Shown here: one piece after another, positions 11,750-60,400 of the stretch | How the letters are laid out: the number at the start of each line of letters is the position of its first letter | Position numbering within the stretch: the stretch's first letter is position 1 | Assembly (NCBI RefSeq): GCF_035083965.1 | Contig: NC_089739.1 | Span: forward strand, 10,466,001-10,530,000 | Direction of reading: 5' to 3' | Length of the DNA stretch: 64,000 bases | Origin: Branchiostoma lanceolatum | Lineage: Eukaryota; Chordata; Leptocardii; Amphioxiformes; Branchiostomatidae | Made by a program: the position numbers and the translations under genes | The notes under the pieces: model-generated | The model's database searches: none | Told to the model about the DNA's origin: nothing | Seen by the model: only the letters and a program-made list of their open reading frames with translations

Positions 11750-12060
11750 CGTCGCGGTGGCGTAGTGGCAGGGTGTTTGGCCCTAGAACCCAGAGATACC
11801 GGGTTCGAATCCGGGGTTCCTTGATTAGTCCCGTTGACATTGTGCCCTTGGAAAAGGCACTTTACACGACTTTTCCCACTTAGGTGAAAATTAGTACCTA
11901 GCTTCGGTTAGGGACGTCCCTCGCATAGGACGTTAAATGTAGGTCCCGTGTTTGAAGATCTAGAGAGCCACAACTCAAGCATGTTAAAGAACCCAACACA
12001 CTTATTGAAAAGAGTAGTGGTCCTTCCCGGTGTGTGTGGATCATATAAATCTGTCTGGAT
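11750..12060 (+). mobile_element. tRNA-derived SINE, well preserved copy
   Basis: The A-box region gtggcgtagtggcagggtg and B-box GGTTCGAATCC are spaced as in a tRNA. A body with ggcactttacacgac, cttcggttagggacgtccc and aagaacccaacacac follows. Copies or pieces lie at 15388, 50465 and 55085 (minus). The copy ends about 200 bp upstream of the first confident MARVEL exon. Confidence 0.75.
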
Positions 12061-12269
12061 ATGCAGCTTGTACTCTTCAGTACAAACCTGGTGTGTTACG
12101 CCTTGATGCGGTTTACCGGGTATGCAATACAAACAAAAACAAGTACTACATGTAGCTACTGCCCCTACAGCGTTACTAGTAGCCTCAAAAAGGCTATAGG
12201 ACACAGTACTAGTTTATTACCGTCTTTCTTTCATAAATTTTTGTTCTTACGCCATTTTGTCGTTATTAG

Positions 12270-22055: not shown

Positions 22056-25000
22056 TTACTCTTTGTCTGGTATGTTTGGTCTCATGTCCCAGACCCTGAT
22101 GACGCTGTCCCCCCCCGCCGAGGCTAACATGGTACCGTCCCGGCTGTAGCTGATGCTGTAGATACTCTCGGTGTGTGCGCGCAGTTCTTTCAACATGTCG
22201 CCCGACGTCAGGTCCCACACACGAACACACTTGTCCTCACCTAAACATTGTAGGTAATTTGTAAGGTTTAACCTTCAACATGTCACCTGATGTCAGGTCC
22301 TGCACACAAAACACCTTCCCAGCAAATGCCACCTAGCTAGTTAAGAACAAAATACATGTTGCTCAGTTGCCACTTACTGTTCTTTTTCGACCGTTTTCAA
22401 GCATAAAATCGTGGCGACAGATTTCCTTAGTCTGTTGTTGTGGTGTTTCGCTTTGCGTATGTCATTATCGGCTTCTACCATTATGCTAATAGGGTACTCA
22501 GAAGAAGGTCGCTCTTTTGATTTTATTATTATCCTATCCAGTTGAGTCCACATCAATTTGATAACAGCGTGAAAAAAATGAAGATTTTGAACCCGGCGTG
22601 TGGTGGTGATGCAGCTTCTACCGGCGCACCGTGACCGTTATTGGCACTGTACTTGCGGGGCCGAAAATCGTCTGGCCGCGACCTTCAACATGTCAACTGA
22701 TGTCAGTATTTCAAAGTACTTAGTACTCCTGCAAAAGTCTTTATGTACTTTGAACTCTTTCACATTCTCAGTTTCAACAATTTTTGTTTGTTTTTTGAAT
22801 AACAACCTGATACTACATGTATCGTATACTATTAGACGTACATTTGTATAGATGTACATTGACAAGCCTTTATTGGAAATATTAGCAGCAACTTTTCAAA
22901 GCTTACCTGCAGATGCTAAGTGCTTTCCATCAGGAGAAAATGCCAGAGAAAATATGGTTCCCTGTAAGAGAATAGAATATTAAACAATCAGCAAAACTTT
23001 AACATTAGATAATGTACGGCGATAAAAATAACAACAGTACTGACAATAAGGAAGAAATAACAACTCTGCTGCGGTTGGAACAATTCTTAAAGGAGTCCTA
23101 AACTCCAGAAGGAGGTGTCATTTTCCACTAGATTATGTATCAATGAATACATAATCAGCTGACTTTTAACAGAATTTTGCTTATGGTGAATTACACAATC
23201 ATTCTTTAAAACAATATGATACTCAATAAACCCTTGCAGACCCTACCCATGTATTCCCTATGGGTAAACATTCATCTTTAAAACTTACTTTGTGCCCATC
23301 TTTTCCGTGGAAGATACGTACAAACTTGCCGTCCTGGACGCTCCAGAGACGAACCGTACGATCTGAAGACCCCGTGGCGATGTAGTTACAGTTTGGGTGA
23401 AATTTCACACACTGGAAAACAAGATACAAAAAACGTTATGCGTCAGTAGTTTCAACATGAACATTTGTGTTTATTATATTCCAGATGCTGAAATAACTGT
23501 GCTATTATTGTCAATGAATGGTTGCTACATGTACATGTACAGATCACAGATTTGTATTCAATGTAGAAGAAAAAGCAAATATAGTAAAGATGATTTTCAC
23601 TTCCTATACTATAGTGCCACAAACAAAGAACTTCAAGTTGAAGTTCTTAACTTTAAAGTACATGTATCTAAAGTTTTTAATTTTTTCATCATTGTAAACT
23701 GAATTTACGAACACAAGAACATCTGATCTGAAGATTTGCAAAATTAATATGACATATTTCTATTACAAGATCGGGTTTACAAAACATTCAGATTCTGAAC
23801 ATTCATAAATACCAAAACATCATAGATAAAATAAACATACCAATATGTAAAAATTCTAAAGCATCAGAGGGCTTACTAAATACAACATCAGATTCAGAAT
23901 GAAGAGGATAAACTATGAAATTAAAAAAAAAAAAAAGTTTAGGCCATCTTACGTCAACGTCTTGAGAATGTCCAGCAAATATCCTGAGCGGGAAGGTTCT
24001 GTCCAGTGCCCAGAGTCTCGCGGTTCTGTCCTGGGAGCAGCTCACGAAATACGCACCCAACGGACTACGCACCATAGGGGGGGGGGGGAAATATGATAGG
24101 ATTGACATGACTGTATGTATAACTGTGCAAGCATCTTTTAACTATTTTTGTGTAACTTTGCTATTGTGTTAAAATGACACAAAAAAGAGTAGAAAGAGTA
24201 TTACATTTGTATGCCGAGAAGTGGCCTCTTACGGCCTTGCATTGAGCGAGATCGTTTAAAAAACAACATAATATTATATGATATTATATGATATTAGAGA
24301 TTTTTTTTTAAATGTGGCATATTTGCATAGAAACTAGATTATATCTGAAGGAAATGATATTATACAAAATGTTGGGTATTGCATAATTATGGGGGGCTGA
24401 TATTGTCTTTCATGAAAATAGGTCTGGATTATTATAAATAGGTCTGGATTATCGCTTAGTTTTTACTTATTAATAATAATATTGCAACACAATCTCAGAA
24501 TATACATTTTTTGTGCGAGAAAGACTATTATTAAATTAGTGGTCATGAAAGTAGTATAACTATGTGCCAAAATGCTAGGCTCTACCATCCTCCGCGGGTC
24601 GCTGGGAAAATAGTAGAAATTGGCCAATATTGTATGAAGGGAGTCGGCTATGGAGATAGGGTCCAAAATTGCAGGTGCAAATGTTACCGTCCATGGCCAA
24701 AGTCCCCCGGCAAATATATTCTCCCTATAGCCGGCGCGGTTAGTCTGGTAGAGACTAGCAAAATGCTGTTATTTGTATAAATTGATTTCAAACGAACCTG
24801 GTGTCTATGTCCCATACTGGATAGCTGTGGCCTTTGTACTGGACATCATTGGTGAAAGTTGAGAGATTCCATAGTCGTACTGAAACGTACAGTCAGAAAA
24901 CACAATCAAGACTAAGGTGGCGCTTTTGCGGTGGCGCTTTTGCTGTGAGAACACTGTCCCAAACGTGGCTAAGCTTGTATCCCCCCTCGTCTCGGTTCAT

Positions 25001-28000
25001 CACTGGTGTTGTCTTGTTCTTTATCCAGGCGGCTTCCTTGATCCAACGGGTACGTCTGTTATCCTCTCTGTTGATTACCTTGGCCTCCTCCCAGTCAATG
25101 ACGCAGTTATGTCTAGCAATGATTGTGGTCAGTGACAGCCACGTTTGGGACAGTGTTCTCACCGCAAAAGCGCCACCTACGTTGGCTACTTATAGCGGTG
25201 AGACGCAGTACTCCAGCTAGAAGCTCTGAAGAAGGTGTCTGACAGACATCGAAACGTTAGCAGGTGATCATGAGATTACCTGGTTGTGTAAAAAGAATCT
25301 CCTATATCCTATATTCTACCAACCTGATGAAATTATTTTCGGAAGTCCTGTTCAGTGTTTTAAGTAAGTCCCTATACCTTGTTGATAGAATCCCATGCAG
25401 ACATTTCCTTATTCAACTCAGGTGAAAATGAGTAGCTTTGCCAATGGAATGTCTTCCTGGATGGGGCGCCACAGAAATTGCATGTTTGAGGAGAGTCACA
25501 CATCAAGCACCTCAAAAAGTCTTAGAGTATTAGTACTTCTTTCCAGTGGATAAAACCATCTGGTCTTGATTTACAAAAAGCAGTTTATCTGTTATGCGAG
25601 ACAAAAAACAAAAGCTGACCTGTTGTGTCCTCAGAGCAGGTTAACAAGAAGGTGTTGTTTGGGAGGAAAGAGGTGCCGTAGACAGGTCCACTGTGACCAC
25701 GCATGTGCTTCACCTCCTGTCCAACACTGACAAAAGAAGATATTATAAAACAAAAATGAGGAAACTCATCAAGTAAACTCTCCTTATAATTAGAGCAAAA
25801 AAAAAAATGGATTGTGTTAGTAAGCAATTACATGTTGTAGAGCTTTAAAACTTAGAGTGTCTTTAATGCCACATGTAAAATAGTTCTAAGACTTGTATGC
25901 AGTATGTGTCATTAGTTTATTGTGCTGATTTTTTTGTATATTCAGGGTAACAAAGACTTAAGATGTATACCCCAAGCAGTGGCGTTGTGCTGGTGTAACG
26001 GTACTCGTAAGGGTAGTTGGCCCAGAACCCAATGGTCCCAAGTTCAAATCCTCTGACATCTCACCAGTCTTGTGCCATTGGAATGGCACTATATACTAGT
26101 GCGACTTTCCTAACTCCATCCAGGTGTAAAAATTGGTACCTGACTTCAATTTGAGAGGTAAAAAGAGGTGGAAGGAGAGGAATAGGCCTTCCAATAGCGT
26201 GCCCTAGACACAGTGGATAACAACCCACTGCCCCTATGGCCTCAAAAAGGCTATGGGACTGCTTCTTCTTTTTCTTCTCGAATCACCACTTATATCTGCC
26301 ACACACTCCCTCTCAGGACTACTACCATTTTATCACATTCTAAAACTAATTATAATACCGGGTTGTACATACTTGTCTTCTCTGACTTTATCATCTAGTA
26401 CATCCCCTGCAAGGTTGATTCTTGAGACGTCCACAGAGTGATGAGCTGCTTTCAGTTTTCGAGACAAGCCGCTCCAAACCTTCACTGTGGAGTCGTCAAA
26501 AACTCCACACACAAACCTGGAGTCATCGGAAACTGCAGCTGTGTTTAACCTATAATCACCATGATGGTAGAAGAAAAAAACAAGTCAGTGTACCACAGGG
26601 GTCCATACTAAACCCTACATGTACATGTACATGGGCCCATACTAACCCTACATTAACTGTATTTGTTTGTACCACAAGGGCCCATACTAGACCCTACGTT
26701 AACTGTATTTCTGTGTACCACAAGGGCCCATACTAGACCCTACATTAACTGTATTTGTGTGTACCACAAGGGCCCATACTAGACCCTACATTAATTGTAT
26801 TTCTGCGTACCACAAGGGCCCATACTAGACCCTACATTGACTGTACATGTATTTGTGTGTACCACAAGGGCCCTGGATACAAGACCCTACATTAATTGTA
26901 TTTCTGCGTACCACAAGGGCCCATACTAGAACCTACATTAACTGTATTTCTGCGTACCACAAGGGCCCATACTAGACCCTACATTAACTGTATTTCTGCG
27001 TACCAGAAGGGCCTATACACAATCCTGGTCAGGGAAACTAAATATCTCAATTCTTCTGAAACTTGAGCTAGATTAGATACTCTTTAATAAGTTAAATGAC
27101 GACACAGTTTTTTCCAATTTCTTAAAACAAAGATGGCTGCTGCAAAACCCACCCTTGGAATGTATTGTGGAAGCTGTACAGACACACTGACGACAGATAC
27201 GGCGTTCCCTCCCGTACTCGCCGGATACAGTCCTGCAGCGACACCTGCGTCACGTCACCCGGCTGAACCTTGTTGTCGGGCGTGTGGGGTGGGGTCGCCA
27301 TGTTAACCTCATGCCCCCCACCCCTCTTGTCACTGTACAAGTCAAGGTCACCATTTTGTGTTGGTTTCACTTAAAGGAAGGAAGAAATAAAAGTTGTGAG
27401 AACAAAATGAAACATTATATTTCATATATTCTAACCTTTTTATGAGCAAACATGAACAATTTCATTTAAGAAAAATACAATGCACAAGCTGCTCTAGTTA
27501 GAAACAGATTAATAGAGGTGAGTCCACCATATACGAACATATACGACAGAAATAAAATACAACACTGACTGATGACCAAGTATCCAACATAGTGCAGGGG
27601 AGCCCCCTTTCAACTTACAGAGAAACTGCACTCAGTCTTCAGATACCACCATCTGCTTACTTACATACATGTATAAAAGTAACAACGACATGGGGAATGA
27701 ACATCTTTTACAAAACTTACCATTTACATGTAGGTAGGTGTTGAACAGTCTGAGTAAAATGAGGTTGTCATCACTCTGAAAAATAAATAAATAAATAAAT
27801 ATTCTTGCAGTATAACAGGTGTCAAAATAACTGATTTTACAATCACTATTTGAAATATAAGAAATGGAAGCAAATTTGTATTATATTGCATATTTCAAAA
27901 GTGTTTTAACACTTAAAAGTTTTAACATGATCATGGTGTAGCTGGCTCCATTAAGGACTACAGCATCTAGCAGTAAAAGTAGGGTTCAGAACTATGGTTT

Positions 28001-37705: not shown

Positions 37706-40700
37706 ATGCTCGCCTGGGTTGTCTTGTCCGTGATCGCAGCGGTCTCCGCCAAGGAGTTTCCCATCCACCAACCACTGACACAAGAGATCATCGACTATGT
37801 CAACTCCGTCGACACTACATGGAAGGTGAGAAAAAATTGCAACCTATTTTCTCTCGGAATCTATTTGAGAACGCACCAGAGAATCTACCATAAAGTTTCC
37901 AATAGCGTACACACTTTTTGACAATTTCAAGTCTCAAGCAGTTGTCCCAGAAGGACCCCAAAGTCGGGGCGCGCATGTTAATGGGGATGTGTACACTATT
38001 AAGAACTTACAAATGTAGCAGTATACCTGATCTTTGAATTAAGTCAACTTCAAAACCAACTTTTTTAGATCAGTAGCTCACATGTTTAGAATCATTTTAT
38101 TTTGTATTTTAATACCGTGCAGCGTGCCTGCGAAGATGGTATGTTATACCAAATGGCGGTTACACCGGCTATATAGATACAGAATATTTTTTATGTTTAC
38201 TAATTTTTTGTTTGTTTTTTCTCTCTTTTTTGTATCATCATCATCATCGGTCCTCCTCTTATATTATTTATTACGAGGTGTAGCAAGTGAAGTTTGCTCT
38301 CCAGGACTTTGATTTAATGGAAGATAGTGAATGTGTGTGAGTTAATACTCAAATGGTTTGAATTACTTGCCAATTCATTTTTTCGTGCGGACATGATCTT
38401 GCAGGATGAGGGAGGTTTCACTTAAACTGTTTAAGTGTGTGAACTTTTAAGTTTGAAGTTGAAACAGTTTTATTATTGATAGAATAAACACATATATTTG
38501 CAGTGTCATGGTTTTGTAGTGACCTCTGCGGAAATAAGACCACTGTGAACATTTCCAGATACATGTATATACAGTGAATTAGTGCTGCGTACTGGTTCTG
38601 TGTACCGGTACTGTACCGTAAAAATTTACACCAAGTATGTGCTTATTTTGTGACTGATCTCCTGAGCTCATGCAACACCAAGCGTGACCAAAGTGATACC
38701 TAACAGAGTAAGTAATATGCAACAGATCATTCAGGCAGGTCGGGAGTTTTGATAGCATTTGGCATTTTAGGCCAAGGCAGTTTGGTGGTAGGAAACCTAG
38801 ATGTATTTTTCGAATTAAGATACTGACAAGTTGAAAACAGTTTATGTTTTTGTCATTGAAAAAGTTCAGAAGAACACATGTTAATTTTTCAAATTGTTCA
38901 GGTGCAGGTTCAGGTCCGGACCTGTACCTAAACCACTGTACCGGTACCTGTACCTAGATGTTACGTTTAGGTACGCAGCACTACAGTGAATATTAATTAT
39001 GCTTATAGAATTTATGATTGCACTTTGACCTCAAATGGTTCTCAGTGAGTGGAACGTACCATTTTGCTCTTCAGGCTGGGTGGAACTTCCAGGGTGCGAC
39101 AGTGTCCTATGTGAAGGGACTGTGCGGTGTGATCAGGGACCCTAACAACCACAAACTCCCACTCAAGCTGCACGAGCTTAATGCTCAGGTAAAGACATCT
39201 ATTAGAGAAAGTATCTCCTTTGATTTAAGAAATAACAATTATTATTGATATATTATAGAGCAATATTAAGCATTCAACACATTTTGAGAATTTGACTGCA
39301 AAGAACTGCAAAAATGTGTGCCAAAAATAGTTACTCAAGCAACTGGATAAAATTTTGAAAAAAAATATTTTCAGACAGCAAAATTATCCGCTGCAAAAAT
39401 GTGGTATTTTGCGTAAATTGCATACTAGATTTAATATGAATTTTAATTGTACAGCTACCTGCTTATCATCTTTCCCTCGGACAGAAGTAGCATGGACACA
39501 GTTTATCTGAAAATTTGGTTAATTTCTGGGGGGTATGTTTATTCCGGGGTGTACGTTTATCAATTTTTGAAGATCTGTCCAGGGGTATGTTTATTCCGGT
39601 GGGTATGTTTATTTGGGAGATGAGAGTAAGTATGAACCAGTTTGTCTCAACTTTATTGGTACCAGGTTTATGATTTTGTAAATTGTTCTTGTTCCCAGGA
39701 CATCCCTGACATGTTTGACTCCCGGACCAAGTGGGCCAACTGTCCCACCATCAAGGAGGTCCGTGACCAGGGCTCATGTGGCTCCTGCTGGGTAAATGTC
39801 TTTTATTTACATAATTTATGCAGCACGTTTGTGTGCCCTATTTTTGATATATATTTTGCTCCATTTAAAGGTGCCCTAAACGATTTCAGAGGGTAAAACT
39901 TGAAATATTCTGGGGAAAGCAATTCTGTTTGGTGAAATTGAAATTGACATTTACTTCCCCATATTTGCACATTTACATCATTATTTCATACTTTGGGTGT
40001 TTAAAAAGAGCACAGAAACAAGCCGCAAAAGGAGTATTCTATTTATTGGTACATGTACCACCCAAAAATCAGCCCAGAATCCAGCCGTAACCATTTTAGG
40101 CCTCAAAACATCATACTTAAAACATAGGTTTTTGGCGAAATTTGCACGTCCGAATTTCTTTTCGGGAAAATGCCGGATTTGCATTGGAAACGACGACGTA
40201 GAACATATTGTAGATATATGCATTTTGTGAGACTGCCACGGGGCTGTCTCCAGATTTTTATTTTTGTCTGCCCCACTCATTGCTTGCTTGTGATGTTGAT
40301 TTTCATAATAGATCTGTCATTTTAATTTTTTTGAAAATACATGACAATTTCCTGTCTGCATGGACGTGAAGATTATTTGGATGGATGGGTTGATATTTTG
40401 TCCCTTCCAACAAGCAAATTTCTTTGGAGGGACATGTCCTGGAGAAAGCCACGATAGACAGTTTATTTCAGTCAAGTCATGGTTTTCGATGCTTTGCAGC
40501 TTTCTCTAAGCCAACAATGTAATCGGCTGCTAAAATTCTGCATCTTTTTTAAACAAATCAAGCATAGATTAGTCAAATCAGAGTAATTAATTATAAACCA
40601 CAGCTTGTAATCATGCCATTGGAAATGTAAGACAAAATAATTGATCTTTTCTCTTCCAAAATGATTGTTTTAACATTGACTATATGACTATCTTTGTGTA

Positions 40701-43700
40701 TAATATGTTTAACGTAGTCAAATCAATGATCATTACAATGAACCAATCAATGAAATCGATTTGCTTCTACCCCCCTCCCCCCCCGCTCTGCAAATCAATG
40801 CTTTTATATAGGCTGAAGCTGCAGCTGAAGCGATGAGTGATCGTGTCTGCGCTGCGTCAAACGGAAAAGTTCAAGTTCACCTATCGTCGGAAAATCTCAT
40901 GGCGTGTTGTGAGACATGCGGAATGGGGTAAGTCTAGAATTACGCCAGAAACAATACAGGTTTTGCTATCACAAACCTGTAAATATTCATGATTCGTTTT
41001 CTCAGGCTGTTGCTGCCGTTGAGGCAATGAGCGACCGTATCTGTGTTGCGTCGATGGGAAAGACGATGGCACGTATATCCTCCGAAGACCTGAATTCCTG
41101 CTGCAGAACCTGTGGTAACGGGTAAGCCGCAAAGCAGCAAACAAAAAAAAGCCCCAAAAAATCAAATGTACTATAAACACTGATCACTTTGTGAATTGAT
41201 ATTCCTTTTCAAATTGGGAGAACATGATTTATTAATAATAACGGTTTTAAATTTACAAATATCGGTCTTACCAAATCTAATTTGCTTGGGCTGGCTTTAG
41301 ACTTTGCACTGATTAGATACAGCACTATATTCAAATGATCGTTATGTACATGTATGTGAAAAGAAAATTCTAATTTCTTGATGTGTAAATTGTTTGAAAT
41401 TCGGCTGACTTAGTAAATGCTTCAGTTCATTTGGCCACACCAATTTTATTTGTTGGTTCTTGGATTTCTAAAGATAACCAGATTCAAATGTTACGCTAAA
41501 AACAGAGTCTGAGGCCTGTAACTAAGTGTAAACAGTTTCCATGAGGGACTATACAATCATGCAGTAAGATTAATCTTTTCCTCCCAGCTTTCTGTTCTCA
41601 TCTTGACTTGACTCAACTAGCTTCTTTTTTTTTCACTTCAAAATGTCTGAGAACCAGTAAGAAATAGATCAGTGTGGCTTTATAGCCTTAATATTGGGCC
41701 TATATACATGTATGACAAGCAACCATATATTATACAATGTCATGCATTGTATCTGACATGCATTTGGATACAATGATTGATGCAATTTAACAGCTTGCTG
41801 CTGCTAAAGGCATTTTTAATTAAAAGTAAAGAATGTAAAAGTTATGTTTTGGAATCATCCTGAATAAAAGGATGGCCACTTAACCATGTTTGATTGTATT
41901 TACCAGGTGCAATGGTGGTTTCCCTGAGGCAGCCTGGGAGTACTGGAAGAGGGACGGCCTGGTAACAGGTGGACCCTACGACTCCCATATGGGGTGTCAG
42001 CCCTACGAGATCGCGCCCTGCGAGCATCACATCAATGGTTCCCGCCCCGCCTGTGGAAAGATCGAGCCAACGCCCAGGTGCAAGAAATCGTGCGAATCTG
42101 GCTACAACGTCACCTTCGCAAAGGACAAGCACTACGGTTTGTAACTTTGCTTTCAAATACATATTACGTCATGTTGTATCTTAAGTTAGTTTTGATTTCA
42201 TGTTGATTAATTCATTTTCCCAGGGACTTTATTTTGGAAAGGAGGTTTTTGCGGTATTCTAAGGGTCCCCAGAAAGTGCGAAATGGAACGAAATGGAACA
42301 AACTTAAACAACATATGCAACATTAGTTCATTCCATTTCGTTCCCTTTCGCTCCATTTCGCACTTTATGGGGACTGGTATTCTAAGCTGGGTAGAAACAA
42401 ATTTGTAGTACAGTTCTGTGGTAATTCATTGGGAACGCATATTCCTGGTGCAATTAGTGAAAGAAATAAAATTCGAAAGCGATAGATAGGTCTCTTTCAG
42501 TTCAAAGATTGTTCTAATCTTACATTTGAATTTAGGCCACAGCAAGTAAATTTTATGGATGACATCCTCCGCAGACCCCAAAATTAATGAGATAGGGCAA
42601 AAAAAAACAAGGCGGGCAAAAAAAACAAGATTCCTATATTTTCAAATTTTGAGGTCATGAATCTTGTTAAACAAGAATTGAGGTGACGAAATATGATATC
42701 ATGACCAACAGGTCTTTTATTCCTGTATTCAACCAATGAGGTTTCAAATATAATATAAAACCTCCTTGATTCAACAGGAAAAATGTCCTTGTAGATGTGT
42801 ACACATCTCAATAGACCAACTACAACAAATGCAGAAAAGAGCTTGTTGTACGTATACCATCATCTGAAGCAACAGTACACTGGGTATTCATATGTGATGA
42901 AACACCTTGTGTATACAGCTCAATTAACTAGACCCCCCCCCCCCCCCATTATTTATATAATGTCCTTGCTAGATCTAGAACAAACGCAGAAAACAGCTTG
43001 TTATTGTACCATCATGGGCAGGAACTACACTGGGTATTCATATGCAATGAAACACCTTAGACTGTCAACGTTTAGGACATATTTGCCCATTTTTGGCATG
43101 TTGACCACCGTCGGAGGGCAATGAAATTTCTTGTTTTTTATTTCGAAATCAGGCGAAAATTAATGAGCGCGCTGATGTCATCCATAAAAATTACTTGCTG
43201 TGGCCTTAGTTTGGAAACTATGTTTTCCTCTACGTTCATTGTATCTTTAATACAATATGTCATATACTACATTTGTGTAAGTAAACAACATATACTGAAA
43301 TTTATGTTTTTGTATTGTGTTGTATACACTAGCCAAGACAGCCTACTCTGTGAGCTCCAAGGTTGAGCAGATCCAGATGGAAATCATGACTAACGGACCC
43401 GTGGAGGCTGCCTTTACCGTCTACGCCGACTTCCCACACTACAAGTCTGGTGAGTCATCAGAACTACTTAAGGTCTCATGCCTGAATTGGTCCACGTGTT
43501 GATGCCCAAAGAGTGCGGGCTAAAAAAATAATTGGGCCCCAAAGGCATGTGTTTCAGTCGATCATAAATTACCTTCGATCGATCCCACCTGATATACATT
43601 TGAGATGGAAGCTTGTTCATGTCTGACAGGATAAGGCAGGAAAGTTTCGGCATCCAAGCGATTGTCGGACTTACACGCCTTTTAGACCTGAGTACTACGG

Positions 43701-45472
43701 TCAGGCTCAATCGGCACCAGAGAGCCTTTTGCGGCTAGTTGGTAATTTCAGATTTAAATGCCATTAAATATCGCTTCCTCAGGTTATATTTTGTTGACAT
43801 TTTTTTCATCGTCTAAAGAACGTGTGTGCTTGCAATAGAAAGTAAAACATCTCCAGAAACTCTGTATTTTATTGAAATTACGGCCATGAAAGGTTCGTGT
43901 TTTAAGTTTATTTCCTATGGGACGGCCTAATTGCCGTGTGAGACCTTAAAACGACTTCGCAATAACCAGGTTGGCAAAATTTGTTGACCGCCAGAAGATT
44001 GCCGTTTTTTTAGAATTGCCACAGATACTTGTTTTGCCTGAACATCTTCAATTTCAAACATTGGCCGATCCCTAAAAAATTGTATTGCAGAAGGAAAATT
44101 CCTTTTTAGAGTTTGCATGGCAAGCTGTTTTTCCTGCTGTGTGACAACGGCTTTAAAGAATTGGCCAATGAGACTGAAGGACACATTAATGCAATTATGT
44201 AATGTAATTTAGCAGTCATGTTCTCATTGGGTGATTTACATGTCCAGGAATCATCACCAGTCTGGAGATAATATAAACTGCTGTTGACCAATCAGAATCT
44301 GCAATAAACATACAATGTATGTGGAATATGGTGTCAAGTCTGTCTTAACTGATCCCATTGGCTGATTTTCGTACAGGTGTATACCAGCACGAGTCTGGCG
44401 CTGAGCTTGGCGGACATGCCGTCAAGATTATTGGATGGGGAACTGAGGGCAGCACCCCTTATTGGCTGATCGCCAACAGCTGGAACAGCGACTGGGGCGA
44501 TATGGGTAAGGAATATACGGCTGCACATTCGTAAACAATTTAACATCAGGACTAGTACACATATAGCTACATTATACAGTAATAGAGGTTTAGTACAGGT
44601 CCCAATATGTTATTACTGTAATTCTTGTTTCTTTCACAATAACTTTATGTTCTGTTTTCACGGTCACCTCTGTACCGGGAACATCACCGTGAAAAAATCT
44701 GTTGTTATTATTTATGATTCCTTCACACATCCATTCTGTATATCACTTGCGGCCATTGTGAAGTTAAAGCTCAGTGAAAATGTCCATTTTCCTTATACCG
44801 TGAAGTTTTGCTACTGTCAAGATAAAGTGAATTACAGTATTAGCTTAAATAGATATTACATTTCTAACTGGGAAGAAACAACCGTAGAAGTAAACCGCAA
44901 TTACAATGTAGATTAGGATGGATACAAGGTTAGTTCATGTCTGTTTATTGATCAATTATAGATCCAATTTCCTTTCAAAATGCTGATAAGGTGCATTTCT
45001 TAGTAATAATTTTATTTGCAAGTTCTTGCTCAAGGGCTAATTGCAACATGAAACAATACTTAGCAAGGGTATACTGTGCTGATAGTGCGAGTTAACAATG
45101 TTGACAAGGTTAGTAACCTGTACTTGTGACTGAACAATCCAGCACCTAAAGACTAACTTGTGATCTTGACTCTTGACCGATAACAGTGAAATGAGATGAA
45201 TAAACAATCTGATGTAACTTAGACATTCAGAAATACATATGCAGCACTAATGCTTGGTTAGTTCACACTGCCATGGTAATAAAAGAGCGTGTAGTGTGGC
45301 ATTAATGCTGCATTAGATAACAGTTTGGCAAGGGTACTACACCCTACGCCATTGTACCAGTTTGTACCTGACGATTATTTTTCTTTCCGCAGGATTCTTT
45401 AAGATCCTCAGGGGTCAGGACGAGTGCGGTATCGAGAGGGACATCGTCGCTGGCGAGCCGCGTCTCGACTAG
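37706..45472 (+). CDS. CTSB: Cathepsin B, lysosomal papain-family cysteine protease
   Basis: Exons (one alternative used) are 37706-37825, 39075-39188, 39699-39791, 40812-40927 or 41006-41121, 41907-42136, 43333-43449, 44377-44505 and 45393-45472 (TAG). Either choice gives 332 residues, close to the human protein (339 as I recall). In order: a signal peptide ([15 protein letters not shown]), a C1-type propeptide, the mature start [20 protein letters not shown], the active-site DQGSCGSCW (catalytic Cys before Trp), [13 protein letters not shown], the occluding loop [12 protein letters not shown] with its His pair (diagnostic of cathepsin B), the catalytic His in [11 protein letters not shown], and the catalytic Asn in [11 protein letters not shown]. 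It acts as an endo- and dipeptidyl carboxypeptidase in lysosomes (family knowledge). An acceptor (cgcgttag) directly before the ATG indicates a noncoding first exon upstream. Poly(A) signal at 46102. Confidence 0.96.
38580..38983. mobile_element. 404 bp hAT-like MITE with perfect 8 bp target duplication
   Basis: The ends TAGTGCTGCGTAC and GTACGCAGCACTA are exact inverses and are flanked on both sides by CAGTGAAT (38572-38579, 38984-38991). The interior carries ccggtac and cagGTCCGGACCTG palindromes, also seen at 57510-57560. It lies in CTSB intron 1. Confidence 0.88.
40812..40927 (+). CDS. CTSB: CTSB alternative exon 4a
   Basis: This 116-nt exon follows acceptor ttatatag and ends at donor GTAAGT. 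It encodes [20 protein letters not shown] and then [18 protein letters not shown] plus GG. It enters in phase 0 and leaves in phase 2, as does exon 4b, so either can join exon 3 (CW) and exon 5 (G-CNGGFP), but using both would shift the frame. It covers the helix after the catalytic Cys and the SSE(N/D)L..CC disulfide segment. Confidence 0.9.
41006..41121 (+). CDS. CTSB: CTSB alternative exon 4b
   Basis: This second 116-nt copy follows acceptor ttttctcag and ends at donor GTAAGC, only 78 nt after exon 4a. It encodes [20 protein letters not shown] and then [18 protein letters not shown] plus GG. Cysteines and the MSDR(V/I)C and SSE(D/N)L..CC frames are conserved with 4a, but more than a third of the residues differ. 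That suggests selection on both copies rather than decay of one. Confidence 0.9.
41428..41485. repeat. One-ended fragment of the GGCCACACCAAT MITE
   Basis: The phrase ttggccacaccaattttatt followed by gttggttcttgg matches the left end of the Harbinger-like MITE at 51354. The other end is missing. Confidence 0.5.
42264..42375. mobile_element. 112 bp MITE with 11 bp target duplication
   Basis: The left end GGTCCCCAGAAAGTGCGAAA and right end tttcgcactttatggggact form long imperfect inverted repeats (about 45 bp each), leaving almost no unique centre. Both flanks carry GGTATTCTAAG (42253-42263, 42376-42386). It lies in the CTSB intron after exon 41907-42136. Confidence 0.85.
42535..43205. mobile_element. 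671 bp Harbinger-like TIR element with TTA target duplication
   Basis: The left end GGCCACAGCAAGTAAATTTT (then atggatgacatc) is the inverse of the right end (gatgtcatccat, then aaaaattacttgctgtggcc). TTA flanks both sides (42532-42534, 43206-43208). GGCC-type ends and a TTA duplication fit PIF/Harbinger (family knowledge). Inside are two diverged tandem copies (about 42810-42900 and 42960-43075) resembling the C-terminal part of a LINE reverse transcriptase, plus a poly-C run. No transposase. Confidence 0.8.
42810..43080 (+). mobile_element. Two fragments resembling LINE reverse transcriptase C-terminus
   Basis: Copy 1 reads [15 protein letters not shown] before a stop. Copy 2 reads [20 protein letters not shown] and then [16 protein letters not shown]. 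The pattern L..(I/M)QKRA...I.G..Y..Y..A...L.L.TL..R is typical of the end of non-LTR reverse transcriptases (family knowledge). Both copies are broken and lie inside the TIR element at 42535-43205. Confidence 0.5.
43472..43945. mobile_element. 474 bp element with TTAA target duplication
   Basis: The ends GGTCTCA and TGAGACC are inverse, with imperfect extension (tgcctgaattgg / cctaattgccgtg). TTAA flanks both sides (43468-43471, 43946-43949), as for piggyBac- or Kolobok-type insertion (family knowledge). It begins 22 bp after the CTSB exon ending at 43449. No ORF of note. Confidence 0.65.
44613..44862. mobile_element. MITE of the TACTGTAATTC family
   Basis: The left end ttaTTACTGTAATTC and right end GAATTACAGTATTag are inverse. 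The inner pairs cacggtcacc / atcaccgtg and aactttatg / gataaagtg add a stem. It lies in the last CTSB intron. Confidence 0.7.
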
Positions 45473-47607: not shown

Positions 47608-50600
47608 TCAGTGCCAGTCCAGGTAGTGTTCATATATCCAGTGTATCTGCGTCCAGTATTGCCATGTCATAGCGGCTACCACCAGCACACATGACACATG
47701 TAGGGGTGAAAGGGTGGTCTGGATTGTGAGGGCGTTGTGCTTTGTCTCTGTCAGCTGTCGAATTGTTTCCACTATCTCCATGGTGACACTATAGGATGGG
47801 TCCTGCTGGGACATCTTGCTGAAAATCTGAAAAAAAAGCACAAAGCTGCATCACCTATTTTCAATAAATGGGACATAATTTGCATAGTTGATCACTATCT
47901 CCATGGTGACACTGTAGGATGGGTCCTGTAGCGACATCTTGCTGAAAATCTGGAAAAAAACAGCACAAAGCTGCATCACCTATTTTCAATAAATGGGACA
48001 TAATTTGCATAGTTGCTCACTATCTTCATGGTGACACTGTAGGATGGGTCCTGTGGGGACATCTTGCTGAAAATCTGCAAAAAAAGCACAAAGCTGCATC
48101 ACCTATTTTCAATAAATGGAACATAATTTGCATAGTTGATCACTATCTCCATGGTGAGACTGTAGGATGGGTCCTGTGGGGACATCTTGCTGAACATTTG
48201 CCAATAAAAGCACAAAGCTGCATCACCTATTTTCAATAAATGGGACATAATTTGCATACTTATGCCTTTCAACTAGGAAACGGATGTCTTTTATTGGTCT
48301 ACTTGCAATGTTCATTTAGAGTGCACATGATAGAACATACTATGTTTAATCCCCTCTTTCGTTTTAACATTTTGCATTAAATTTAGTTTAAATGATGTTC
48401 GTTGGGTGTATATTGAAAATGAAGAAAAATTCATTTCAAAGGTCAAAAGTGTACGATTTTCTGGAGTTTGTATTGACTTCCCTTGCAAAAACTATCTTAC
48501 AGAAAAAAAAACTTGAGAAACTTGCATGTTCAAAACTACTTTTTACCTCCTCACAAAAGGGCCTCATGATGCCCCTAAAGTTCTCCATGTTTGTTGCGTT
48601 GATCATCATCTTCACAGCCTCTCCCTTCCTGATCTTCACAACACCCTGGAACACTTTGGGGTTGTTGTAGCAACGGGCCAAGGTTGCTATGGCCATCACC
48701 TAGGCAACAGGAAAATGACTGAATCTGATTCAAAGTTATGGTTGACAAACATATTATAACTTTATATATCATCTAGTTTCAAGCTCAGCGAGACCAGTAT
48801 TAAAGAGTAGGTATGAACAATCAGAGGCCTGGACATACATGCCCAAAGTGTGGGCTTCTTCAAGTACAAACACTGTTAAGACAGATCAGAGCATTTTTAG
48901 GACACAAGCTTTTGAAAAGTGCAATTCTGCTTTTCAATAACCGACTATCATTTCACATAACATATCAAAATCGCGATCTTTCTCTAAAACTTGCCTTGCA
49001 TGTATTTTAGCCCCTCTAAAGAATAAGATAACTGAATGCTACCATTGCAGTCGAATTGAACATTGCACAACTCAAATCTTTTAGTCATTGTCAAAAATTG
49101 TCTTACCTGGGGTATAGCGCAGAAGTTGAAGACACTTTGGTTACGTAGCCTTGACATGTACTTCATTACATCAGGCACATGTAGCAGGGCATTCGTCACC
49201 AGCTCATTCAGACACCACAGGGCATTCTGGGACATCTCAGATTGTCTGAAGTCAGACAGCTTTTTGGCATATTTACTCCAAACCTGTAAAAAAGTAGAAA
49301 TACCTATTTCTCAATCATTTCTTCTTTCATAAACTATTTGTTCATTCATTTGATACCTTCTGCTACCACCTGTACTGGTGCTACCCAATCAGTCTTTAAA
49401 AAGTTAAGCCACATTCTTACCTCCTGCATTGAGATTCATGCCCTGGAAAAGTCCATTATAAAGATTATACAAATCATTCTGAGCTGTAAAACTCACTGAC
49501 AAAAACCAACCAATCACTGGGCTGAAAAACAATTAAAGAAATATTGACTAATCACCGGGCTGCTAGACTAAGAAAGACCAGCCAATCACTGGGCTGCAAT
49601 GACAAATGAGACCAACCAATCACTGGGCTGCAATGACAAGAAAGACCAACCAATCACTGGGCTGCAACACCAAACAATCACTAAGCTGCAAGACAAAAGA
49701 AATATCAACCAATCACAGACTGTACAGATAATTAAATCACCTGTCTTGGCCAGAACTCCCTCCCATCCACCTGGTCCTCCAAGTAGTCCCTGATGATGTT
49801 AGTTTTCTGTAGAAACAGACCCATGGAGTTGGCCAGGTCTGTATCTTCTCCCACCAACTGGTCCTCGAACTCTGACCCAGAGAACAGTCTGGATAGTCCG
49901 ATGCCTACCAGTCCCGCAACGTAGTGACAGTACTGCACAGAGCAAAAAAAAGTTGTCACAAAGTTTTCATAGCCTAAAATTTATCTGAAAACGAGGCTTT
50001 AATTTGCTGAATTCTGGGGAAACGTCAATGGTGTACTGCAATCCCTCTATAATACATTGTAAAATATAGAAAATATGAAAGAAAAGATGATGTCATAATA
50101 TCATATCAAGTTTATACTTTGTTCAAATGGAAAACATTTACCTATGTGAGATGATCTAATTTTAACTGTCTTCCTCAGAATTCAAGTGGCCAATTACAAT
50201 CGTCTATTTCAGGTGACATTATGGACATATGACATCAGTAACTGGTCATAGCTACTAGGAAAGCAAACTCAGAGTAAAAGATAATTGAGTTTTCCCAATC
50301 TGCACACAATGCTATTATTAGGCTCCTTCCCAGAGAGTTACATAATATAACAGCCCCAAATTTTCACATTTGACTTATGCTTAATGTTTATCAAGAATGT
50401 GTCGTCATTAGGATGAGAATAGGAACTTTTTAAACACACCATTTTTTAAAAAGGATATTTCCATCCTTCAGGTGTAAATGAGTACCTAGCTTCGGTTAGG
50501 GACGTCCCTCGGATAGGACGTTAAATAGAGGTCCCGTATTTGGGAAGAGCCACACCCTGCACACGTCAAAGAACACACCACACCTTTCGAAAAAGAGTAG

Positions 50601-53493
50601 GGGCATTCCCCAGTGTGCGATGGTCCAAACCTAATAGTCTGGTCAGTTGACATCTTGAATAGGTGATAGTCACCTGTTAATAAGTTTATGTCAGTCCTTC
50701 CACAAATGTGGTAAAACTGAATAAATAAATTAAAAAAGATAAATGAATAAATAAATAAGAATACCTTATCCCAGTCTGCCAGTGTATCAACATCACTTCT
50801 CTGTACAAACTCTGCCATGCCTGCCCCCATCCTTCTACAGATATCAGAGATCACTTCCTGGTACAGGGGCTTCAGCTTCCGGAACTCCTGAGAAATCTAA
50901 AAATACAACTTTTTTGTTAAAATTCCTTCGTTCTTTCCTTTGATATTCAAAATTTTCAAAAGGCATTCATCTAAAATGAAAGCAAATACGCACTTCCACT
51001 ATAAAACAAAACTGGCCATCAATTTATTCCTTTGGGTAAAGATAAAGGAAAAAGTTACTAGTACATAGAAATGTATCTTATGTCAGTATTGACAGACAAT
51101 CAACCGGATAGAAAGTCAGCATGTGATTCTCATGATGTTGTTCTCTTGAAGTATAGCATGTCACCAGAACCTAAGCCTTTGTCAAGAAACTTATGATGGA
51201 AGCTATTAGTACAAGGTTGAACAAGAACAATGCAGCATTTGTTGCCTGAACTAAATCCTCATTTAATGTAATGGGTGTACATAAACTCAGTGACATTACA
51301 GCTTTATATGATCCAAAGATTTCTCATTCCTGGTCTTGCATTTACAAGGCTTAGGCCACACCAATCTTATTTCTTGGTTAACAGATTTTTATTTTCGAAA
51401 AAAAAATTTCGAAAAAAAAAAATCATTCTTTTTCTAAAAATTTTTTTTTGGGAAAATAAAAATTTGTCAACCAAGAATTTAAATTAGTGTGGCCTTAAGT
51501 TAAAAGAAAACATTGCAACTCACAGTTGGGAAATCTTCGAGAACCATTTTGTCTTTCTCATTGCTGTCCATGAACCTCCATGCTGGGTCCTGTAGATAGG
51601 TGTAGAAATTATGCAGCATGTCCAGTTTGGTGTCCAGTGGAATGGTCATGTCATCTTCTACTGTGTCCAGGGCTCTCAGGACCAGGTAGAATATACACAC
51701 CGCATCTCTGGAAGAAAAGTTTGTAAAAATGCACATTATATTAAGATACTGTGTACAAAAATTAACTGCAATGACCTATAATACACTCAACACAAATAGT
51801 TTGGAAACTGAAGTTTTGTAAATTATATCTTAGTTATATGAAACTTTACTTTAAGTTCAGTAGAAAAAAAGGTGGAAAATTGGATTTCCAAGATGGCCGC
51901 CTTGAAATCCGGAAACTGAAGTACCCAATGTGAACTGACCAGTGTTGAATGTATACCAATTTATCAGTTTTATGGTACTATTAGTATCAGATTATATCAT
52001 AACCACTTGATTAGTTTATAATCCTTTTGCAATGATACCATATGTTTTGTGATCCTATGTTCAAGGACCAATTGCCAGAGCTGATTGTATGGGGTATGAG
52101 ACCCGCGGAGGCTGGTATAGCCTACTCGGAATCATTGTTGAGCAAGGGATAGAGTCACCCGCTGCATAGTCCAGAAATGCACCCGTCAGCAATGGATTGT
52201 ACTTCTGATCATCCTTTGAGAGCTGAGTTAGCCCTCCTTATGTAGCTTCGCTTCAGGCTTCTAGCTAGGATTTATAGCTAGACAAGGGGTCCAAAAATGG
52301 GGGTGAGGGGTGGTGATACTATGATGTGGGGGTTAGGTGTGTTCTAGTCTTATCATACTTTTGGCAGACCATTTTAAGCACTAAAAACTGCTTGTTCCTT
52401 CTCAGTGTCTCCCAATGGGGTCTATGGATTAACAATTTTCTAGCATTTCAATCAGTTTTCAGACTGTCCCAGTGTCTGGTATGACACTGTACAACAGTAA
52501 CCTGTGTCTGTAATTATCAGGGAAACAGGGGGTCCTCTGTGCGCGTCCAGCTGAAAAAGGGGGCGCCCAATTTCCTTGTTATTTTGGTATCATGCGTCCA
52601 ATTGACGCATTGACGCATGCCTAGCTAGAAGCCTGCTTTGCTTGGAGCTTGCTTGTCGGCTTTGCTGCGGGTCAGTGCAGTTGCTTGGGTTACTTTGGCA
52701 CCCAATCCCTTGGCCTACCACTTATGGTCATATGTGGTGGACTAACCTGAGGTCACCATCCAGAGCTTGAGTGACGGCGGCAAAACTGCGGCTGGTCTGG
52801 TTCAGGTACTGATAACAGGTGCGCATGCTCGGGCACATCTGGTCCTACAGAAATAAAAGGTTGAACATTTTAAGTTTTAGCTTATTGCAAGTTCTTGTCC
52901 GTAGGCTAATTGCAAGTGTAACAGTGCGGGTTCAAGCGCCTCCAACTGACCAGTCTAACTGGTCGCGACCTTTCAGCCTAGTGGTTAAGGCGTGCGTGCC
53001 TGTGATCTTGGCTGCTGGTTTCGGCGCGGGTTCGAATCTCGGTTGGGATTACTGACATTATAGTATTGACTCTACTCTACTCTACTCTACTCTTGGCTTA
53101 GCTCTACTCTACTCTACTCTACTCTACTCTACTCCACTCTACTCTACTCTACTCTACTCTACTCTACTCTACTCTACTCTAAGTTCTACTCTACTCTACT
53201 CTACTAGTACTCTACCCTATAAATGTGAAATCTTAGTACAATGTTACTTCACAGTAAAGTTGGAACGATTTTACCACTAAACAGCTTAAAGATGAACACT
53301 TAAGACCGTCCGACACAAGAGATGAAAGTATTTCGTTTAGAAAGGATTAATATTTTAGTACCAAGGCCATGACCGAAACACTACTCACGTAATGACATTT
53401 CGTCTGGACTGTTTCGCATCCTCCTAGCTTGAATTTCAGCAGCGAATAAATCTCTTCCGGGTGTCCCGCTAGCGCAGAACGCATGAGATCCAT
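47608..53493 (-). CDS. FDFT1: Squalene synthase (farnesyl-diphosphate farnesyltransferase)
   Basis: Eight minus-strand exons join in frame: 53493-53389, 52844-52747, 51707-51524, 50896-50765, 49932-49741, 49283-49107, 48699-48547, 47826-47608. They give 419 residues (human 417 as I recall). It condenses two farnesyl diphosphates to squalene with NADPH at the ER, the first committed sterol step (family knowledge). Visible hallmarks: the start [39 protein letters not shown]; the first Asp-rich motif [28 protein letters not shown]; the second Asp-rich motif in [44 protein letters not shown]; and a C-terminal hydrophobic anchor ([16 protein letters not shown]). All catalytic motifs are intact. 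The gene lies tail-to-tail with CTSB and head-to-head with RIOK3. Confidence 0.97.
47764..48260 (-). repeat. Tandem repeat (about 121 bp x 4) copying the FDFT1 last-exon acceptor
   Basis: The unit contains the first about 19 codons of the last FDFT1 exon ([18 protein letters not shown] on the minus strand), its acceptor, and intronic sequence ending tgggacataatttgcatag. Copies after the true exon have exon shards at about 47894-47947, 48018-48076 and 48140-48196. All three keep the reading frame open. Acceptor AG is kept in the first two extra copies (ttccag, ttgcag) and lost in the farthest (ggcaaatg). Confidence 0.9.
50465..50755 (+). mobile_element. tRNA-derived SINE, 5'-truncated, in FDFT1 intron
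   Basis: The copy starts within the body (tcaggtgtaaatgagtacct) and continues cttcggttagggacgtccc, acacctttcgaaaaagagta and gtgcgatggtccaaacc. It ends in an aataaataaat tail 10 bp from the FDFT1 donor at 50764 (opposite strand). Confidence 0.7.
51354..51494. mobile_element. 141 bp Harbinger-like MITE with TTA target duplication
   Basis: The ends GGCCACACCAATCTTATTTC and its inverse (ttaaattagtgtggcc) continue as tcttggttaacag / gtcaaccaaga and attttcg-rich centres, so nearly the whole element is a hairpin. TTA flanks both sides (51351-51353, 51495-51497). Fragments occur at 35406 and 41428. Confidence 0.85.
52250..52640 (+). repeat. Dispersed repeat family D, copy 3
   Basis: It has the same ordered phrases as 14420-14790: ggggtccaaaaatggggg, taggtgtgttctagtct, cagaccattttaagcac, gtcccagtgtctggtatga and catgcgtccaattgacgc. 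It lies in FDFT1 intron 2. Confidence 0.7.
52955..53055 (+). mobile_element. tRNA-like SINE head
   Basis: The A-box-like tagtggttaaggcgtgcgtg and B-box GGGTTCGAATCTC are correctly ordered and spaced. The segment runs straight into the (CTACT)n microsatellite, which could be the SINE tail. Confidence 0.55.
53066..53215. repeat. (CTACT)n pentanucleotide microsatellite
   Basis: The unit actct/ctact repeats about 25-30 times with few interruptions (ggcttag near 53094, aagttct near 53181). Confidence 0.95.
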
Positions 53494-57400: not shown

Positions 57401-60400
57401 TGAAAGTCTTCTCACCAAGAAACTTTTATAGTCCTGTGTGTCAGTATCAATTCTCTATATATGCTTAATATTGGTCTAATGAAACAAAACATGAACTGGA
57501 CAGGATCAGGTCCAGGTTCAGGTCCGGACCTGAACCTAAATCTCTGGACCTAAACTTGGACTTGGACCTTATCAAGCCGAACCGGTATCCACCCCTACTG
57601 TCTACTCATTCTGGAGTCATAAAATCAATCATTATCTAATTGAGTGGTTAGCACTCTAGCCTCTGGAACTAGAAGCCGCGAGTTCGATCCCAGCTGTGTC
57701 GCCAACATGCGCCCTACCGGAAACGGTCGCAGACCTTAGAACGGGACATTAAGCTGCGGTCCAATATCCATTGCGCTTGTCGAGAATAGCTTAGACTAAG
57801 GGATTTCCCTGGTACAATGAACCTGTAAATATCGTGCATGGCGTCTGTCTTCTCCGTCAAGACCAGTGGAAGATTAGCTCTTCAACACAAATCTTTACGC
57901 TAAGCCCGAGCGAGGTTGGAACCCCTGTCCTTTGGATCCATTTTGAGAAACTATTTGCACTCTCCTTTTTCTACAGTGACCATCTCGTTTGAGAACTACC
58001 GCATGGTTCACCCTGCTGAGACAGAGGACAGCAGTGAGAGTGATGAAGACCTGGAGGATGCTTGGGACCACGGTACTGAGAATTTATCCACTTCTCTTCT
58101 TAACAAAACTTATTTCATTGACAATGATCTGTATTTGCACATTCCTGACAACATGGGCTAAATGCAGTATAGCATGTAGTTTCAATATTACATGAAATGT
58201 ATAATTAAGTTCACTTCACAGCATAGACTGAGACATGGACTCCCTATTAATAGTTTGGTTTTGCAAACTGTTTTGTTTTAGTGTTATGGATAAAACAAAG
58301 ATGACGGCCTTCTGGCTACGATAATCACATGCAAGATAGTCTCCGCCTTTTAAAACACGAAGCTCCTCCCCCAAGAGCACGATCTGGATAGACACCCTTG
58401 ATTATCCCAGACGCGCTCAGCTGGAGCACATCCTGGATATCCCAAACCTGCACTCATGGCTTGGGACGTGTTTGGGATATCCCGAAACTGCTCCAGAGCG
58501 TGTTTTCGATATGGAGAGCGGTTTTTGGATACAACAGGGGGGAGCAGTGTGGAGTTTGTGGATGAAATGGGGCATTCTAAGGCTTTCTGAAGGGAAAGAA
58601 TTACTGTCAGACTGGTCACAGTTGAAGACTGTGGTCAGTGTGGCCACATGTGACATACATGTAGTACTTGTAGCATCCCTGGTCAATACGAATTTTGGCA
58701 ACACTTCAGGGGCAAGCCTAAGGGTATAGTATAATTATGCTTGTCAGAGGATCTGTTCCCCAGAGTAACTTACTTTTATATGCCCACAGAGTAAGCGTTA
58801 ATAGGTGCCTGTGGTATTTAACAGACGGCGCATTAAGACACTGGCCGCAACCAGCCGAACGTGTGGTCAGGAAAATATATACAATGCGGGAACTATGTCA
58901 CCACCACTGTGTGAGTGTCTGTGGGGTTTAACAGACGTCGCATAAAGAAACTGGCCACAACAAGCCAAACGTGTGGTCAGGAAAATATATATATATACAA
59001 AGCGGGAACTATGTCACCGTAATTGTATTAGGTGTCTGTGGTATTTAACAGACGGCGCATTAAGACACTGGCCACAACCAGCCGAACGTGTGGTCAGGAA
59101 AATATACACAATGCGGGAACTATGTCACCACCACTGTATGAGTGTCTGTGGGGTTTAACAGACGGCGCATAAAGAAACTGGCCACAACAAGCCAAACGTG
59201 TGGTCAGGAATATATATATATACAATGCGGGAACTATGTCACCGCAATTGTATGAGCGTCTGTGGGATTTAACAGACGGCGCATTAAGACACTGGCCACA
59301 ACCAGCCGAACGTGTGGTCAGGAAAATATACACAATGCGGGAACTATGTCACCACCACTGTATGAGCGTCTGTGGGGTTTAACAGACGGCGCATAAAGAA
59401 ACTGGCCACAACAAGCCAAACGTGTGGTCAGGAAAATATATATATACAATGCGGGAACTATGTCACCGCAATTGTATGAGCGTCTGTGGTTTTTAACAGA
59501 CGGCGCATTAAGACACTGGCCACAACCAGCCGAACGTGTGGTCAGGAAAATATATACAATGCGGGAACTGTGTCACCGCAATTGTATGAGCGTCTGTGGG
59601 GTTTAACAGACGGCGTATTAAGAAACTGGCCACAACCAGCCAAACGTGTGGTCAGGAAAATATATATATAGACAATGCATAGACAATGCGGGAACTATGT
59701 CACCACAATTGTATGGTGGTGCATGAAGAACTGGCCACAACCAGCCAAACGTGTGGTCAGGAAATTATACAAAATACGTCACTGCAGTTGTACCACAACC
59801 AGCCAAACAAGTGGTCAGGAAAATATGTACAATACGGAAACAGAGGGCAACGTAGCTGTGTGTCTGTTTGATATAGCGGACGACAACTAAAGAAACTGCA
59901 TTATAAAAGCCAAACTCGCGACCAGGAAGGTATGTACAGTAAGAAAAAACGATTTCGTAACTGTATAATTGCCTAGGCGATTTAACGGAGCGGGCGGGTG
60001 GGTTGTCAAGCGTTCTGTTCGCGGGATTGGACTTAGAGCAAGTGTGTGCGGCCTGCTAAGGGTCTGGCGCTACAATGAATAAATGCCTCGTGTACAGAGA
60101 CCACCCGCAGGAGTGTCAGACAGATAGCTTAGTAACTATGGCAACTGTCTGGGACTACGTGGGAAATGGTTCGTTCTCGCTTCACGTCAGAAACCCGGCT
60201 TTGCCATGCAGTTTTGCCGGGCAAATGGCTTTCTGACTTCCAGCTTGTCTTAGCTAGTTCACACTTAATCAACCACAGAGACCACATGTGTTTGGCGGTA
60301 TATACAACCTTATATTCTGGTGCACACAAACAATGGTACAGCATCAACACGTGCGACGCATGGGGTAAGACAGAAATTGTCTGGAATACATTGCCAAAAG

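Follow-up and report, generated by a model that had tools for sequence, protein, structure and literature searches.

Papain-family enzymes usually diversify through whole-gene duplication. Splicing of tandem exons in a mutually exclusive manner is well documented, and the closest described systems are exons 4a and 4b of OGDH (PMC7969005) and the human mutually exclusive exons (MXEs) surveyed in PMC5740500. In both, the tandem exons are homologous, match in length and phase, are separated by a short intron, and break the reading frame when they are joined. The criteria for MXEs given in PMC3228551 are length, splice pattern together with frame, and homology. According to the same source, 90 of 16180 non-MXE exons (0.56%) on the fly X chromosome share such MXE features.

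The lancelet gene described here likewise contains two tandem, homologous exons with these properties. The host of the pair is a papain-family catalytic domain, unlike OGDH and the other general MXE cases. The exons lie in the cathepsin B gene (CTSB) within the window, which is the whole stretch of 64,000 nucleotides that was analyzed. Exons 4a (40812..40927) and 4b (41006..41121), both on the plus strand, are very likely tandem-duplicated mutually exclusive coding exons, and the gene probably makes two enzyme forms by using one exon or the other. At the level of sequence, this reading is well supported.

The lancelet cathepsin B gene and its surroundings

The CTSB gene is intact, spans positions 37706-45472 on the plus strand, and has only GT-AG introns. 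Exon 1 (37706..37825) contains the start codon, the signal peptide, and the start of the propeptide, with a Propeptide_C1 match. Exon 2 (39075..39188) encodes propeptide. Exon 3 (39699..39791) ends in DQGSCGSCW, where Cys108 is Cys29 of mature cathepsin B (CatB), and its last base, 39791, is the end of the TGG directly after the catalytic Cys codon. The alternative exons 4a and 4b each consist of 38 codons plus 2 nt, and their translations end in CCETCGM and CCRTCGN, respectively; the intron between them occupies 40928..41005. Exon 5 (41907..42136) encodes GCNGG and the EHH of the occluding loop and is followed by exon 6 (43333..43449). Exon 7 (44377..44505) contains catalytic His277 and Asn297, and exon 8, with the stop codon, is found at 45393..45472.

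The procathepsin B product is 332 amino acids long with either 4a or 4b. Both isoforms match Peptidase_C1 (PF00112; 1.1e-64 and 9e-65) and the CatB propeptide (PF08127; 8.8e-16 and 8.9e-16). The best solved relative of both is procathepsin B 1pbh, with 432.1 bits for the 4a form and 432.6 bits for the 4b form. C108, H277, and N297, which we take to be the catalytic residues, align with 1pbh, as do H188-H189 of the occluding loop. All five residues are encoded by exons common to both isoforms. Among the PDB chains used here, 1pbh is presumably human, 1cte rat, and 1ito bovine.

By tblastn, the window contains no further CTSB gene and no other duplicated exon of CTSB; the remaining matches had E values of at least 2.9. 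Rfam gave no match at the gathering threshold, and one scan of IMG/VR found no relatives of isoform 4b. Comparison of both isoforms with GTDB genomes gave one papain-family locus, in Clostridium beijerinckii, at an uninformative 33% over residues 238-315.

Adjoining CTSB, SQS_PSY matches are observed in two of four tested minus-strand ORFs from 48984-51775. The ORF at 49732-49980 matches at 2.9e-14, and the one at 51500-51775 matches at 0.0015, under the curated cut-off. FDFT1 is part of the human CTSB locus (PMC11587650). The presence of a squalene-synthase-family neighbor, as with FDFT1 at human CTSB, suggests that the lancelet gene is an orthologue of vertebrate CTSB.

At its 3' end, the squalene-synthase-like gene contains four copies of a 123-nt unit (47770-48258, minus strand; 94% matches). 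In three of the four copies, an acceptor-like CAG precedes ATTTTCAGCAAGATGTC, with which the terminal coding exon probably begins, and only the copy nearest the stop continues into the full exon. The 5' end of the terminal exon and its acceptor appear to have been tandemly duplicated.

Other features of the window are farther from CTSB. A TCCT/TCCA tetranucleotide array of about 1.5 kb is located at 12636-14107, where the GC skew is extreme (-0.676 over 12001-14000). At 58809-59670, a 224-nt unit is present in 3.8 tandem copies with 96% matches, and a shorter period of about 110 nt underlies it. Two minus-strand regions match protein families. Three ORFs at 23223-26584 match WD40 (1.6e-8, 2.4e-6, and 0.0015, the last under the cut-off) and are probably exons of one WD-repeat gene, which by eye we take to be TAF5-like. 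A single open frame of 209 amino acids at 60580-61209 matches GDSL-like lipase/acylhydrolase at 4.3e-9.

Homology, constraint, and reach of the exon pair

An earlier note on this DNA had located exons 4a and 4b from the letters alone, and its coordinates proved right to the base. Each exon is 116 nt long, is bounded by AG/GT junctions, and is entered in phase 0 and left in phase 2, and the gap between them is indeed 78 nt. The note had further held that including both exons or neither would break the frame. This is the case, as a transcript with 4a and 4b stops within 4b, and a junction of exon 3 to exon 5 stops a few codons on. The pair is read as mutually exclusive because the non-exclusive products are frameshifted.

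At the protein level, 4a and 4b are identical at 23 of 38 residues; the 15 that differ (39%) bear out the earlier figure of more than a third. At the nucleotide level, 71 of 116 positions are identical, and the matches at codon positions 1, 2, and 3 number 31, 27, and 11 of 38 sites. Open AG..GT segments of 116 nt are common by chance, with 28 on the plus strand and 34 on the minus strand (62 in total, 4a and 4b included). Homology was controlled with 1302 open AG..GT segments of 89-149 nt from within the window. Compared with 4b, 4a scores 125 and the best segment overlapping neither exon scores 33. A third copy of the exon was sought in the eight introns among phase-compatible open AG..GT segments of 89-149 nt (2, 5, 12, 0, 0, 10, 2, and 1 candidates per intron, from the first to the last). 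None was found, the best candidate scoring 25 versus 125 for the true pair. Exons 4a and 4b thus have the similar length, the same splice-site type and phase, and the homology expected of MXEs.

The differences between the exons are mostly silent. By the Nei-Gojobori method, pS is 0.89 (23/25.8 sites, saturated) and pN is 0.25 (22/88.2 sites), with a bootstrap range for pN/pS of 0.15-0.48 in 2000 resamples. When the 45 differences were scattered at random over the 114 coding bases, the number of identical residues averaged 12.1 and peaked at 19, so that none of 20,000 trials reached 23; a stop was gained in about 77% of trials. The excess of silent differences and the saturation of silent sites argue for long purifying selection on both exons. 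The pair looks old, and both of its members look constrained.

Neutral drift was simulated with each exon as the starting sequence, in 4000 trials per run. After 0.25 substitutions per site, 23% (from 4a) and 32% (from 4b) of the trials were open with at least 23 identities. This fell to 0.1% and 0.2% at 0.5 substitutions per site, and no trial qualified at 1.0 or 1.5. The simulation would therefore miss a relaxation of constraint in one exon that is no older than about 0.25 substitutions per site.

The two exons stand at about equal distances from mammalian CatB, each being identical to the human, rat, and bovine enzymes at 18, 20, and 19 of 38 residues, respectively. Identity to the 9s60 chain is 19 for 4a and 18 for 4b. 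Each exon has three unique changes against human, rat, and bovine CatB; against 9s60, 4a has two and 4b has three. The exon region scores 76.6 bits (4a) and 75.2 bits (4b) against 1cte. Fourteen positions, including four cysteines, are invariant across 4a, 4b, and the four mammalian rows of the alignment. Exons 4a and 4b resemble each other more than they resemble the mammalian sequences, and relative to the mammalian rows they have five residue states and a one-residue gap in common. This is consistent with duplication after the lineage had separated from vertebrates, although the shared states could instead be ancestral.

Exon 4 covers residues 31-69 of mature CatB, which comprise the helix that follows the catalytic Cys, together with the boundary between the light and heavy chains. 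The numbering is what we take to be that of mature human CatB, placed on the lancelet protein by alignment. Compared with human CatB, conservation among the mature-enzyme exons is lowest in exon 4 (as 4a), with 19/39 identical residues (49%). Exons 3 and 5-8 are 54-77% identical, and the pro-region exons 1 and 2 are below exon 4.

Position 32, after CWA, is Glu in 4a, Val in 4b, and Phe in the four mammalian rows; Val is found at this position in some invertebrate and protozoan CatBs. In the 4a form, the match to the light chain 1csb_A (47 residues) extends as far as Asn126, and the match to the heavy chain 1csb_B begins at residue 129. Asn47, at the chain boundary, is kept in 4a and is Met in 4b, where the light-chain match ends two residues earlier. 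Position 69, which presumably sits beside the S3 pocket, is Met in 4a, Asn in 4b, and Asp in the mammalian rows. The gap shared by both exons relative to the mammalian rows is at position 65.

Splice sites, exon choice, and rival explanations

The intron between 4a and 4b is far shorter than the other seven CTSB introns, which are 510-1249 nt long. The earlier note had called the splice sites of both exons good. That description suits 4b and both donors, GTAAGT (4a) and GTAAGC (4b), each of which agrees with the consensus at 7 of 9 positions. It does not suit the 4a acceptor, which is weaker. With 9 pyrimidines in 17, it is the poorest in the gene, the other seven acceptors having 10-13, and on this ground 4a may be the regulated exon of the pair.

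The same note had proposed that the 78-nt gap may block splicing between the exons sterically. The literature places the steric limit at a branch point about 50 nt from the upstream donor (PMC5740500, PMC7969005). In a scan confined to yTnAy, the sole branch-point match in the intron (TTCAT, for the 4b acceptor) is 62 nt from the 4a donor. As this is beyond the limit, steric exclusion is no more than a possibility. In OGDH, by comparison, the mapped branch points are 25-41 nt from the 5' splice site (PMC7969005), whereas the CTSB pair combines the 62 nt with a hairpin. This hairpin is a perfect 9-bp stem-loop, TACAGGTTT / AAACCTGTA, at 40955..40981 on the plus strand (intron nt 28-54), between the 4a donor and the branch-point match. 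It could shorten the effective path from donor to branch point to about 35 nt. A stem of this kind is seen in only 9 of 2000 dinucleotide shuffles and in 11 of 659 windows of 78 nt. The fold of the 78-nt intron has a z of -2.1, matched by 6 of 200 shuffles. Over the wider 381-nt region, the fold does not stand out (z -0.79, matched by 18 of 100 shuffles).

Annotated MXE clusters reportedly tend toward long-range pairing (PMC6071210). In the one sequence analyzed here, docking/selector pairing was not above chance. Shuffles paired at least as well in 60 of 100 cases between the middle intron and intron 3, in 10 of 100 between the middle intron and intron 4, and in 35 of 60 between introns 3 and 4. 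U2/U12 incompatibility is not supported, as neither donor is a U12-type site. Frameshift coupled to NMD would be the surest filter against non-exclusive transcripts.

In the proposed mechanism, each productive mRNA would contain one of the two exons, and transcripts with both 4a and 4b or without exon 4 would be removed by NMD. The choice of exon may be biased by the short, hairpin-bearing intron and by the weaker 4a acceptor. The central proposal of the earlier note, mutually exclusive exons, is supported by homology, frame logic, and purifying selection, and from the sequence we infer that both exons are used. Points against it are the Glu at position 32 of 4a, the yTnAy distance of 62 nt, the acceptor of 4a, the chance-level long-range pairing, the ordinary fold of the 381-nt region, and the insensitivity of the drift simulation to very recent loss.

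Two of these points would also suit a gene that makes one enzyme only, in which one of the duplicates, with 4a the likelier candidate, was abandoned recently and is intact yet no longer spliced in. The polypyrimidine tract of 4a is the poorest in the gene, and its Glu stands in place of the Phe seen in all four mammalian CatB rows. The drift simulation is also compatible with a loss no older than 0.25 substitutions per site, at which 23-32% of trials were open with at least 23 identities. Nevertheless, both exons have 18/38 identities to human CatB and three unique changes each, 4a has a full GTAAGT donor, and its exon region scores slightly above that of 4b against 1cte. Abandonment of one exon is thus considered unlikely. 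The early stop in both-in and both-out transcripts raises another reading, a switch between productive and unproductive splicing. Here, a single enzyme would be the main product, and CTSB mRNA would be lowered via NMD of transcripts with both exons or neither. The 78-nt intron may still be spliced, with its branch-point match 62 nt from the donor, and MXE-joining reads are reported in 83 of 377 human clusters of such lengths (22%; PMC5740500). Such a switch needs no conservation of protein sequence in both exons, yet both are conserved, and we regard it as quite improbable.

Lancelet populations are highly polymorphic (PMC7008246), and an assembly artefact could have set two alleles or paralogous exons side by side. 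A nucleotide difference of 39% with saturated synonymous sites is, however, far beyond allelic divergence, and tblastn found no other CTSB exon doubled in the window, which leaves an artefact with hardly any probability. Mutually exclusive use of 4a and 4b is the reading preferred here.

Two proposed cathepsin B forms in the context of known enzymes

Under mutually exclusive splicing, both products would be cathepsin B, with the pro-region, the occluding loop, and the catalytic Cys/His/Asn in common. They would differ in the helix behind the active-site Cys (position 32), at the light/heavy-chain boundary, and at position 69 beside S3. The likely outcome would be two forms unlike in stability, maturation, or peptide preference.

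In mammals, two-chain cathepsin L is produced by legumain (PMC8972049, PMC11735880). Cathepsin B and legumain are both among the highly expressed genes of the amphioxus digestive diverticulum (PMC6015868). A guess by analogy is that legumain might cut lancelet cathepsin B at Asn126, the cited cases being cathepsin L and not cathepsin B. More broadly, and tentatively, the exon switch might govern both the maturation and the behavior of the protease. The 4a form would have a legumain-type Asn and a charged residue in the core helix, and the 4b form, without the Asn, would stay single-chain or be cut elsewhere. The result would be two distinct CatBs, e.g., a gut-digestive and a general lysosomal enzyme.

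Among the open-access titles and abstract openings surveyed on cathepsins, proteases, and amphioxus, none reports mutually exclusive cathepsin exons. Such exons are not described in the available text of PMC8791509, PMC12533970, PMC11311815, or PMC6015868. In PMC11311815, cathepsin appears in the reference list only, and in PMC12533970 as a drug target only; PMC6015868 cites a 2003 paper on cephalochordate cathepsins. The earlier note was aware of no comparable case in vertebrate CTSB, and neither "CTSB" nor "cathepsin" appears in the main text of PMC5740500, the survey of human MXEs.

The animal seems to have diversified CTSB by duplicating only the exon for the catalytic-site helix and the two-chain boundary, with both copies long kept. 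The two forms would be a natural enzyme pair, identical outside 38 residues, with which to probe the part that helix packing and chain cleavage play in tuning a cathepsin. The locus may also serve as a further example of the origin of mutually exclusive splicing where the intron is very short.

As a cathepsin B of papain family C1A, the lancelet enzyme has the pro-region, the catalytic Cys/His/Asn, the EHH motif, and the four cysteines of exon 4 in common with its relatives. It differs in having two alternative segments for residues 31-69 and, relative to the mammalian rows, Glu or Val in place of Phe32 and the gap at 65. Human CTSB pre-mRNA also has splice variants, giving several mRNAs from one gene, as here (titles cited in PMC11311815). 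By its title, the human variant affects the 5' region, whereas the lancelet pair affects the catalytic helix. Schistosoma japonicum and the lancelet are alike in obtaining more than one CatB from neighboring sequence (PMC8791509). In S. japonicum, whole genes are tandem-duplicated, and in the lancelet, a single internal exon.
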